Source: a virus
Direction: 5' to 3' (one strand)
IMG/VR virus record: IMGVR_UViG_3300044621_001939
Span: 1 to 38,051 of that record
Length of the DNA stretch: 38,051 nt
Positions 29,422 to 31,808 of this stretch are shown here, one piece after another. The notes beneath the pieces were generated by a model. The model searched no databases, had not been told where the DNA came from, and saw only the letters and a program-made list of their open reading frames with translations. The translations under genes and the position numbers were made by a program. The stretch's first letter is position 1. Each line of letters begins with the position of its first letter.

Positions 29422-29474
29422 GATGGGCGGAAAAAAGCCCCCGGAGATGGGCGGAAAAAAGCCCCCAGAGGGGC
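29422..29474 (-). terminator. Tandem terminators ending the anti-defence operon
   Basis: Two exact 21-bp units (29422-29442, 29446-29466). On the - strand the first reads GCCCC-TCTG-GGGGC followed by TTTTTT, and the second has a GCCC / GGGC stem followed by TTTTTT. They stop the operon that ends at 29487. Confidence 0.8.
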
Positions 29475-29486
29475 CCCGGGGGTGTG

Positions 29487-29876
29487 CTAAGCCTCGACGA
29501 TGTCCAGCCTGTACCCGTCATGCTCTAGGCGGTCCGTGATCTCATCCAGCTTTGCAGCGGTCCAGTCGCGCAAATTGTCGGAAACGTACTGTTCGAAGTC
29601 ATCCGGGCCGTATCCCTCAGCTGCGGAATTGTCAAACCAAGCAGCGCGGCCGATATAGATATGATCGCCAGTGACAAAGTCGGAACCGGTCCCGGCAACT
29701 TCCCGGGTCCAGAACTCGACAACTTCAGCAACGGGCTCGCTTATCGGGTCCGTTACGGGTCTGATTGTTGCGTAAAGCTCGATAAATCCGCGGCCGTGAT
29801 CGCGCCCGGCAGCATCCTCGATCATTGCGCGGACCGCTGCGACAAGCGCGGACCGTTTGAAAATTAACTCGTACAT
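29487..29876 (-). CDS. Acidic small protein (129 residues) with a ribozyme in its 5' leader
   Basis: An acidic protein (many Asp and Glu) with alpha/beta character and no recognised domain. The C-terminal 30 residues are an amphipathic helix-turn. It has the repeated 16-nt leader just before ATG 29876, and hammerhead copy B lies in its 5' leader, directly downstream of an extended -10. Codon choice is GC-rich compared with the phage core. A DNA-mimic or anti-defence role is possible by context, but I have no direct evidence. Confidence 0.6.
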   Translation of the reverse strand: MYELIFKRSALVAAVRAMIEDAAGRDHGRGFIELYATIRPVTDPISEPVAEVVEFWTREVAGTGSDFVTGDHIYIGRAAWFDNSAAEGYGPDDFEQYVSDNLRDWTAAKLDEITDRLEHDGYRLDIVEA

Positions 29877-29892
29877 CCTTCTTCATCCTCTC
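29877..29892 (-). repeat. Repeated 16-nt translation leader, copy 4
   Basis: On the - strand GAGAGGATGAAGAAGG directly before ATG 29876, just downstream of hammerhead B. Identical to copy 3. Confidence 0.85.
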
Positions 29893-29901
29893 TTTTTGTC
29901 T

Positions 29902-29951
29902 GACCTCGTCAGCGCTTGCACTACAAGCGGACCGCTTGCGCGGTTTCGGTC
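29902..29951 (-). ncRNA. Type II hammerhead ribozyme, copy B
   Basis: On the - strand, in order: stem II 3' strand GACC; GAAA; stem III CCGC-GCAA-GCGG (GNRA tetraloop); UC (cleavage triplet GUC); stem I CGCTTG-loop-CAAGCG; CUGACGA core; stem II 5' strand GGTC. All pairs are Watson-Crick. Cleavage is predicted between 29930 and 29929. Confidence 0.9.
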
Positions 29952-29953
29952 TC

Positions 29954-29974
29954 GGGCCCGTGATTAGCGGGCCC
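29954..29974 (-). other. Hairpin on the 5' side of hammerhead B
   Basis: 7-bp stem GGGCCCG / CGGGCCC with loop CTAATCA. It shares a 19-nt core with the hairpin before copy A. It could stack on or compete with stem II. Confidence 0.8.
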
Positions 29975-30473: not shown

Positions 30474-30914
30474 TTAGTCTAAGATCTCCAAGACTTGACC
30501 GCGGTCCAAATCCTCGTAATAATTGCCCTCAAGGCGCATATCACGGCCTAACATGTCATAATCGATAGAAACGTACCACCAAAGGCTGCCCGCTTGCTCT
30601 TCAATGATTTCTCTAAGATCCTCGCCATAAACATCCGTCACATATTGCCGGGCGATGTCTGACATATTGCCGTTATAAATCCGGTAGCTGTAGCCCTCGA
30701 CGATCTCGACGGCCTCAGCGACTGAATAACCGGCAGCGTCGACGATAAAAAGCGCGGCCTCTACCTGATTCACTTCTAAAACTTCGATACGTGCGACAAG
30801 CTCGGAAAACTCTTCATTGCTTGCGGTATTCTCAAATCGGGCTAAGGCGTAACGTTGCAATGATAGATCAACCAATTTTTGACGATTTTCAACGGATAAC
30901 AATAACTCGTTCAT
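30474..30914 (-). CDS. ArdA-like anti-restriction protein
   Basis: A 146-residue acidic protein resembling the last two thirds of ArdA, a DNA mimic that blocks type I restriction enzymes. The family-like features are the helical middle, 'YNGNMSDIARQYVTDVYG' and a C-terminal 'SIDYDMLGRDMRLEGNYY', close in pattern to the IDY-x3-GRD-x2-L-x-G end of ArdA. It is shorter than the usual 165-170 residues and appears to lack the first domain. The repeated 16-nt leader precedes ATG 30914. It is the best functional anchor for the island. Confidence 0.7.
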   Translation of the reverse strand: MNELLLSVENRQKLVDLSLQRYALARFENTASNEEFSELVARIEVLEVNQVEAALFIVDAAGYSVAEAVEIVEGYSYRIYNGNMSDIARQYVTDVYGEDLREIIEEQAGSLWWYVSIDYDMLGRDMRLEGNYYEDLDRGQVLEILD

Positions 30915-30930
30915 CCTTCTTCATCCTCTC
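30915..30930 (-). repeat. Repeated 16-nt translation leader, copy 3
   Basis: On the - strand GAGAGGATGAAGAAGG directly before the ArdA-like ATG at 30914. Confidence 0.85.
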
Positions 30931-30938
30931 ATGATTTT

Positions 30939-31073
30939 TTAGGCGAACAACTGCACAGCGACGAAAACCCAAGCGACGGCAGCAACTGCGACGATAGCGA
31001 CGGCAACGGGCTCCATGTCGGAGACGTCACGGGCCCAGAGACGGGCCAAGCGCTTTGCTCTTGTGATTGTCAT
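30939..31073 (-). CDS. 44-residue single-pass membrane peptide
   Basis: ATG 31073 has GGGAGGAG upstream. The N-terminal 15 residues are Arg/Lys-rich, followed by a short acidic turn and a long Ala/Val/Trp hydrophobic helix reaching the C-terminus ('AVAIVAVAAVAWVFVAVQLFA'-type, about residues 22-43). This fits one membrane helix with the basic end inside the cell. It lies between hammerhead C and the ArdA-like gene. Possible roles include superinfection exclusion or toxin-like signalling, but I cannot assign one. Confidence 0.6.
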   Translation of the reverse strand: MTITRAKRLARLWARDVSDMEPVAVAIVAVAAVAWVFVAVQLFA

Positions 31074-31100
31074 GTGTGATCAACTCCTCCCTTTATAATT

Positions 31101-31156
31101 GGCCTTCATCAGTGCGGGCCTTACCCGCAGACGGTCCGCGCTGGACCGTTTCGGCC
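31101..31156 (-). ncRNA. Type II hammerhead ribozyme, copy C
   Basis: On the - strand: stem II 3' strand GGCC; GAAA; stem III CGGTCC-AGCGC-GGACCG; UC (triplet GUC); stem I TGCGGG-TAAGG-CCCGCA; CUGAUGA core; then an extra A and stem II 5' strand GGCC. Cleavage is predicted between 31130 and 31129. The extra A may weaken activity. Confidence 0.8.
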
Positions 31157-31161
31157 TGATC

Positions 31162-31419
31162 TTATCGGCCGCCTCTCTTTATCTCTTTTAACTCGTCTTC
31201 CAGCTCGTACATCATACCCGCTAGATAATCACTTTCCGCGCTGCAGCTTGCTTTACAGCTGCAAACCTCGTCTAACATTTTATTGATTATATCAACTGAT
31301 AAATTGCTGTAAGCCTTGTAAAATTGAATCATTCCCTCAGCTGTTTTCACTCCGGACCAATAAGCTGCATCATTATGCTTGCGTTCTAGTACCTCAGTCA
31401 TTAGCTCTTGCGTCGTCAT
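31162..31419 (-). CDS. Small acidic protein, 85 residues
   Basis: ATG 31419 follows the repeated 16-nt leader and hammerhead A. Alpha-helical, with three Cys in the middle ('VCSCKASC') that could bind metal or form disulfides, and an acidic C-terminal helix. No family recognised. It is the first cistron released by copy A cleavage. Confidence 0.6.
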   Translation of the reverse strand: MTTQELMTEVLERKHNDAAYWSGVKTAEGMIQFYKAYSNLSVDIINKMLDEVCSCKASCSAESDYLAGMMYELEDELKEIKRGGR

Positions 31420-31435
31420 TCTTCTTCATCCTCTC
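31420..31435 (-). repeat. Repeated 16-nt translation leader, copy 2
   Basis: On the - strand GAGAGGATGAAGAAGA directly before ATG 31419, just downstream of hammerhead A. Confidence 0.85.
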
Positions 31436-31444
31436 TAATGTTCT

Positions 31445-31502
31445 GACCTCGTCAGCGTGGACCTTATCCACGTACGGCCCAAGATCTGGGACCGTTTCGG
31501 CC
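31445..31502 (-). ncRNA. Type II hammerhead ribozyme, copy A
   Basis: On the - strand: stem II 3' strand GGCC; GAAA; stem III CGGTCC-CAGATCTT-GGGCCG (one G-U pair); UA (cleavage triplet GUA); stem I CGTGGA-TAAGG-TCCACG; CUGACGA core; stem II 5' strand GGTC (one G-U pair). Cleavage is predicted between 31473 and 31472. Confidence 0.9.
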
Positions 31503-31506
31503 TTTC

Positions 31507-31525
31507 GGCCCGTGATTAGCGGGCC
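31507..31525 (-). other. Hairpin on the 5' side of hammerhead A
   Basis: GGCCCGCTAATCACGGGCC, identical over 19 nt to the hairpin before copy B. It contains the stop codon of the upstream gene. A nearby GGCC-GAAA-GGCC could compete with stem II. Confidence 0.85.
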
Positions 31526-31770
31526 AAAAATTCAAACGTACATTCTTCTGATTCTCCCTCGACGCAATAAGCTATAAACTCATTTGCAGCGGTCTCGTCG
31601 TAAACTTCATGTTTCATTCTGATTAAATCCCATTGGCCGGCCTGATCTCTTGCAAAGTCATATACGATACGGCCGTTATACCAAGCATTGACAGCGACAG
31701 ACTCAGCAATCTTTTGCGTTAGCTCCTCCTGCGAAAACTCAACCTTTACACCTAAAATATCAACCTTCAT
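31516..31770 (-). CDS. Acidic small protein (84 residues), first gene of the island
   Basis: ATG 31770 follows a close variant of the repeated leader. It is an acidic alpha/beta protein without a recognised motif. The stop codon lies inside a hairpin shared with the copy B leader. It is driven by the promoter at 31809-31837. A DNA-mimic role is conceivable from charge and neighbours but is unproven. Confidence 0.65.
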   Translation of the reverse strand: MKVDILGVKVEFSQEELTQKIAESVAVNAWYNGRIVYDFARDQAGQWDLIRMKHEVYDETAANEFIAYCVEGESEECTFEFLAR

Positions 31771-31786
31771 CCTTCGTCATCCTCTC
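31771..31786 (-). repeat. Repeated 16-nt translation leader, copy 1
   Basis: On the - strand GAGAGGATGACGAAGG directly before ATG 31770. Near-identical leaders precede the genes at 31419, 30914 and 29876. Confidence 0.85.
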
Positions 31787-31808
31787 GTTATTTGTCTTGC
31801 TTGTCCTC

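Follow-up and report, generated by a model that had tools for sequence, protein, structure and literature searches.

Introduction

Type II hammerhead ribozymes, grouped in Rfam family RF02276 (PMC3088659), combine the hammerhead core with closed stems I and III, an open stem II and a GUC triplet; they occur in phages and bacteria, with several copies flanking small genes. Most type II hammerheads have a loop I-tail pseudoknot, which is not a required feature, and in Agrobacterium a triple set of such ribozymes lies around the antirestriction gene ardA (Perreault et al. 2011, PMC3088659). Natural insertions of one or two bases in the core have also been described (variants A6a, U13a and saltern 2a/2b; PMC3088659), of which A6a and 2a/2b cut activity strongly. 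A further insertion, an extra A between A9 and G10.1, is native to the CChMVd(+) viroid hammerhead; data of De la Pena and Flores (2001), cited through PMC3705267, indicate that at this position 10 an A slows cleavage moderately, a U speeds it 3-4-fold, and C or G is seriously harmful. The role of hammerheads in phages is an open question (PMC10085705, PMC6155905).

The DNA studied here, referred to as the window, is a stretch of 38,051 nucleotides from an IMG/VR virus record. Its terminase is closest, among named genomes, to those of Paenibacillus prophages, and the window is that of a Paenibacillus-type phage with a minus-strand operon around the element that is the subject of this report, termed copy C; no phage records similar at the DNA level were found. 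Copy C is one of three hammerheads in the window, all on the minus strand and between small genes, and it shares with RF02276 the core, the open and closed stems, the GUC triplet and the setting described above. It differs from the family in carrying an extra A before stem II, in its UNANG loop I and in scoring 0.7 bit under the family cut-off. The insertion is shared with CChMVd(+), and lies elsewhere than those of A6a, U13a and saltern 2a/2b; however, the viroid ribozyme serves replication, whereas copy C would be a type II spacer between phage genes.

Fold and scores of copy C

The elements of copy C, which reads 5' to 3' along the minus strand from 31156 to 31101, are as follows.

31101 to 31156, minus strand: type II hammerhead ribozyme, copy C (sequence, covariance model)
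31156-31153, minus strand: GGCC, 5' strand of stem II (sequence)
31152-31149, minus strand: GAAA (sequence)
31129 to 31130, minus strand: predicted cleavage site after C17 (31130), GUC before stem I, a canonical NUH triplet
31129-31113, minus strand: stem I, UGCGGG-UAAGG-CCCGCA, 6 bp with a 5-nt loop
31112-31106, minus strand: core CUGAUGA (sequence)
31105, minus strand: extra unpaired A, position 10, between A9 and G10.1 (sequence, model alignment)
31104-31101, minus strand: GGCC, 3' strand of stem II (sequence)

Stem III is formed by CGGUCC/AGCGC/GGACCG together with A15.1-U16.1 (7 bp), and the open stem II (GGCC/GGCC) against closed stems I and III identifies the architecture as type II. 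The core follows the family, with CUGANGA present as CUGAUGA, together with GAAA and GUC as the NUH triplet. Scored with RF02276 (Rfam Hammerhead_II), copy C reaches 36.3 bits (E 4.1e-5 in 2.5 kb) against a gathering cut-off of 37, under which clear insert-free relatives likewise fall. The annotated stem II pairs of RF02276 look one base out of register (G paired with G), which may explain the sub-cut-off scores of many clear type II hammerheads, including copy C. R1, a covariance model based on 15 hammerheads from other phages, with those of the window left out, places copy C at the top of the three copies in the 38-kb window, with 53.0 bits and E 4.8e-15; the copies at 29901-29952 and 31444-31503 score 51.2 and 46.9 bits, and there are exactly three good matches, the next having E 0.42. 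The complete fold and this score bear out the original prediction that copy C is a hammerhead with matching core and stems. No match to the hammerhead motif was found in 295 sampled Paenibacillaceae genomes, which indicates that matches to the pattern are rarely due to chance and that the motif is not a common element of the host.

It had also been claimed that stem I and its loop match exactly those of another copy in the window. This holds for the UAAGG loop, which is shared with 31444-31503, and not for the bases of the stem, which are UGCGGG/CCCGCA in copy C and CGUGGA/UCCACG in the other; the copy at 29901-29952 has UAGUG as loop I. Since UAAGG is the commonest loop I of the class (24/210), its sharing between copies means little. 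Most members of the class have a UNANG pentaloop as loop I. Unlike what is described for RF02276, pseudoknots between loop I and the tail are not above chance in the class (59 observed, 57.6 expected from permuted tails), and copy C itself could form only three such pairs, against a criterion of at least 4 bp.

The extra A at position 10

The unpaired A that had been noticed between CUGAUGA and GGCC is confirmed at 31105 on the minus strand, and alignment to R1 identifies it as the sole insertion at the junction between core and stem II. Copy C thus departs from the RF02276 consensus in that stem II does not directly follow A9, a departure for which natural exceptions are known, and corresponds to the A10-insert of CChMVd(+) type, the core being otherwise of consensus sequence.

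The frequency of such insertions was assessed in a collection of at least 405 structurally complete motifs from at least 289 loci. One-base inserts at this junction are present in 163 of them, a share inflated by scans that were aimed at the insert. Among the matches listed, the inserted base is U in 154 cases, A in 7 (copy C included), G in 2 (a near-identical pair) and C in none. A scan for GGCC stems with an inserted A yielded 5 stretches, one of which (L005) is a complete hammerhead; a scan for any inserted base gave at least 119; and a complete scan with GACC/GGTC stems gave 49, with U in 38, A in 5, and C or G in none of the complete hammerheads. In a sample selected by stem III, and therefore blind to the junction, 102 motifs comprised 81 that were insert-free, 18 with U, 1 with A and 2 that were unclassified, so that 19 of 100 hammerheads carry a one-base insert. 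These natural frequencies track the order of rates given for CChMVd(+) in PMC3705267. The six other A-insert hammerheads, all from other phages, have intact stems, and locus L306 holds two copies with identical stem I, one with an A insert and the other with a U. Judged from sequence, the extra A is a tolerated insertion, rare but recurrent, at a known position, although its rarity relative to U (7 against 154) may mean that A is only just tolerated.

The inserts are also associated with stem I. Its closing pair is G1.1-C2.1 in 118 of 163 insert-bearing and 32 of 242 insert-free hammerheads (p 1e-25 on an earlier subset), the latter being mostly Y1.1-R2.1, and across the hammerhead loci of the scans it is the U insert that accompanies G1.1-C2.1. 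Unlike most insert-bearing hammerheads, copy C keeps U1.1-A2.1, suggesting that the base was added later to a hammerhead of the insert-free type, possibly recently and with no compensating changes since. By analogy with the viroid, it is plausible that copy C is slower than the other two copies. It need not, however, rank last among the window copies, since predicted folds favour the active form for copy C and a trapped core for the other two.

Genes around the hammerheads

Along the minus strand, the order is an 84-aa gene, a hammerhead, an 85-aa gene, copy C, a 44-aa ORF and an ArdA-like gene, with the third hammerhead further along, ahead of a 129-aa gene.

31507 to 31525, minus strand: hairpin GGCCCG-CUAAUCA-CGGGCC, whose loop holds the stop codon of gene 31516-31770; exact copy at 29955-29973
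31444 to 31503, minus strand: type II hammerhead without insert, GUA cleavage site, preceding the 85-aa gene
31162 to 31419, minus strand: upstream cistron, 85 aa, whose TAA ends 5 nt ahead of stem II of copy C
31084 to 31091, minus strand: Shine-Dalgarno-like GGGAGGAG of the 44-aa cistron (sequence)
30939 to 31073, minus strand: downstream cistron, 44 aa, hydrophobic
30474 to 30914, minus strand: ArdA-like antirestriction gene, 146 aa (PF07275 24.8 bits, cut-off 27)
29901 to 29952, minus strand: type II hammerhead without insert, preceding the 129-aa gene 29487-29876

No close relatives of the 85-aa gene were found. In the three copies, the next start codon lies 25, 27 and 25 nt beyond stem II, the value for copy C being 27 nt. 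The two identical 19-nt stop-codon hairpins (29955-29973 and 31507-31525) sit just upstream of the two other hammerheads, and copy C has a related upstream hairpin, an arm of which doubles as a strand of stem II. A ribosome-binding-site cassette of GAGAGGAUGAAGAAGGAUG type precedes four minus-strand genes (29872-29899, 30910-30937, 31415-31442 and 31766-31793), two of the four cassettes directly following hammerheads. A 24-nt tandem repeat, GATGGGCGGAAAAAAGCCCCC, is present at 29422-29469 and, read on the minus strand, resembles a terminator.

Among the relatives found that have DNA on the hammerhead side of the terminase, the nearest (L331; terminase 79% identical) carries one hammerhead, on the same strand and scoring 66.4 bits, 26 nt ahead of a clear ardA (PF07275 99.4 bits), to whose product the ArdA-like protein of the window is 33% identical over 110 aa (E 2e-9). 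This positional relative is insert-free, so the two phages do not share the extra A. A general link between hammerheads and ardA was considered and set aside: none was seen in 50 hammerhead-bearing records, where controls were equally without matches, or in 25 other ArdA loci, which limits the link to the window phage and L331, beside the published Agrobacterium and Legionella cases. No hammerheads were found near related terminases in Paenibacillus prophages.

The arrangement around copy C is that of the class. A Shine-Dalgarno sequence with a start codon lies at most 60 nt downstream of 233 of 315 hammerheads (median 26 nt), as compared to 26 of 315 antisense and 387 of 1575 random points, and a stop codon abuts stem II in 259 of 340, against 75 of 1572 random points, controls that ignore gene density near ribozymes. 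Stop codons were counted for ORFs of at least 60 aa when ending -2 to +10 nt from the first base of stem II, and the junction is commonly TA(G)GCC; the class counts derive partly from the matches listed, and related sequences were retained, with only exact duplicates removed. Copy C, between its stop and start codons, fits this layout. A stop codon on one side and a ribosome-binding site with a start codon on the other make the type II phage hammerhead the intercistronic spacer. Several type II hammerheads occur in series between genes in L016 (eight on one contig), L225 and L482.

Proposed role and alternative explanations

Copy C is probably a working type II hammerhead that splits two cistrons, the extra A probably slowing cleavage moderately rather than abolishing it. 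As the operon RNA is made, copy C would cut after C17 (31130), leaving an upstream mRNA with the stem III hairpin and a cyclic phosphate at its 3' end, and a downstream mRNA, encoding the 44-aa and ArdA-like proteins, whose 5' end carries a hydroxyl and is capped by stem I. The hairpins on both new ends should protect against degradation from the ends and allow the two genes to differ in level. The type II permutation, which leaves one closed hairpin per new end, would suit a cistron separator that protects both of its products.

The original prediction had offered two further possibilities, a decayed copy and a regulated one, both of which appear improbable. If the insertion were fatal, or nearly so, core and stems would survive only due to the loss being recent; the rarity of the A insert, its absence from the relative in L331 and a stem I closing pair of insert-free type are all consistent with such decay. 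However, no further defect is present in the 56 positions, copy C has the highest score of the three copies, and core, stems, loop and gene context are intact; in addition, the six A-insert hammerheads elsewhere retain their stems, and the same insert is active in the viroid according to PMC3705267. Alternatively, the extra A could tune a switch, copy C being slow or regulated, with ribosomes on the upstream gene gating cleavage through a hairpin, GGCC-GAUAAGAUCA-GGCC, which has the stop codon in its loop. This hairpin takes a strand of stem II, the two structures being mutually exclusive by sequence; the minimum-energy fold of 31172-31086 pairs GAUCAG with the core (outer helix GAUCAG/CUGAU), and stop codons abut stem II throughout the class. 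Such a switch is about as doubtful as decay, since with shorter upstream sequence the active fold is favoured, few members of the class (6 of ~240) have a word complementary to the core on the 5' side, so that in copy C it is probably a coincidence, and nothing ties the extra A itself to the hairpin; the suggestion that copy C is regulated found no support.

Two other explanations are less likely still. The extra A may be an artefact of sequencing or assembly in this metagenome contig (AA for A), as it is a single base next to another A at a locus known from one record; this is very unlikely, given that contigs assembled from short reads seldom contain single-base indel errors and that the same insertion recurs in other phages. 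Finally, the two strong hairpins and intergenic position of copy C could be those of a terminator or mRNA end with no ribozyme, but the invariant core letters would have no role there, a U-tract is absent, and the full core occurs together with all three stems in at least 405 collected motifs, making this explanation exceedingly improbable.

A core-complementary strand after stem II

Many tails of the class contain a word, N'UCAG, that is complementary to the CUGAN of the core, whose last base, N7, is regarded as free. It was found in 146 of 352 tails of the set predating the GACC search, usually directly after stem II (offset 4 in 103), and in 129 of the 146 N' and N7 are Watson-Crick partners, a number approached by none of 20,000 permutations (none above 98). 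With one motif per locus the pairing holds in 116 of 130, and in motifs with a 17-nt stem I, forced cases excluded, in 108 of 114 (C-G 80, U-A 26, G-C 1, A-U 1). Figures for N7 from the 405-motif set are left out, because the GACC/GGTC search pattern forces the base. The covariation could have been a by-product of loop I pairing, an explanation that was rejected, N' matching loop position 4 in 33 of 114 as compared to 108 of 114 for N7.

Pairing of CUGAN with N'UCAG is incompatible with an active core, and would thus represent an off state or a product state. Minimum-energy folding yields this pairing in 116 of 146 precursors and in the same number of 3' products; the energy models ignore the tertiary contacts of hammerheads, which leaves the predicted balance of folds uncertain. 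Such words were seen in L014, L029, L043 and many others, and at 29900-29912 and 31443-31455 of the window, where the GUCAG of both other copies overlaps a strand of stem II.

31443 to 31447, minus strand: GUCAG anti-core strand against core CUGAC, copy 31444-31503 (sequence, minimum-energy fold, class covariation)
29900 to 29904, minus strand: GUCAG anti-core strand against core CUGAC, copy 29901-29952 (sequence, minimum-energy fold)

The tail of copy C contains no anti-core word; it is the copy with the spare A. Whether many phage type II hammerheads carry a latch, in which N'UCAG after stem II pairs with CUGAN and covaries with N7, is in our judgement evenly poised. If so, cleavage would have a short co-transcriptional time before the latch forms, or, once the cut is made, the downstream mRNA would have its 5' end sealed by the latch; given a stop codon joined directly to stem II, the hammerheads would then be timed cistron separators.

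Significance

Copy C itself is a modest variant. The broader patterns, namely the position-10 inserts, the placement between stop codon and Shine-Dalgarno sequence, and the covariation with N7, were not found in the literature searched, the coverage of which was partial. Natural phage hammerheads commonly carry a single extra base at position 10, with a base preference like that measured in the viroid, and phage type II hammerheads occupy, at near-fixed spacing, the interval from a stop codon to the ribosome-binding site that follows it. Like the insertions and the placement, a core-complementary strand that covaries with N7 gives a direct handle on the function of these ribozymes in phages.
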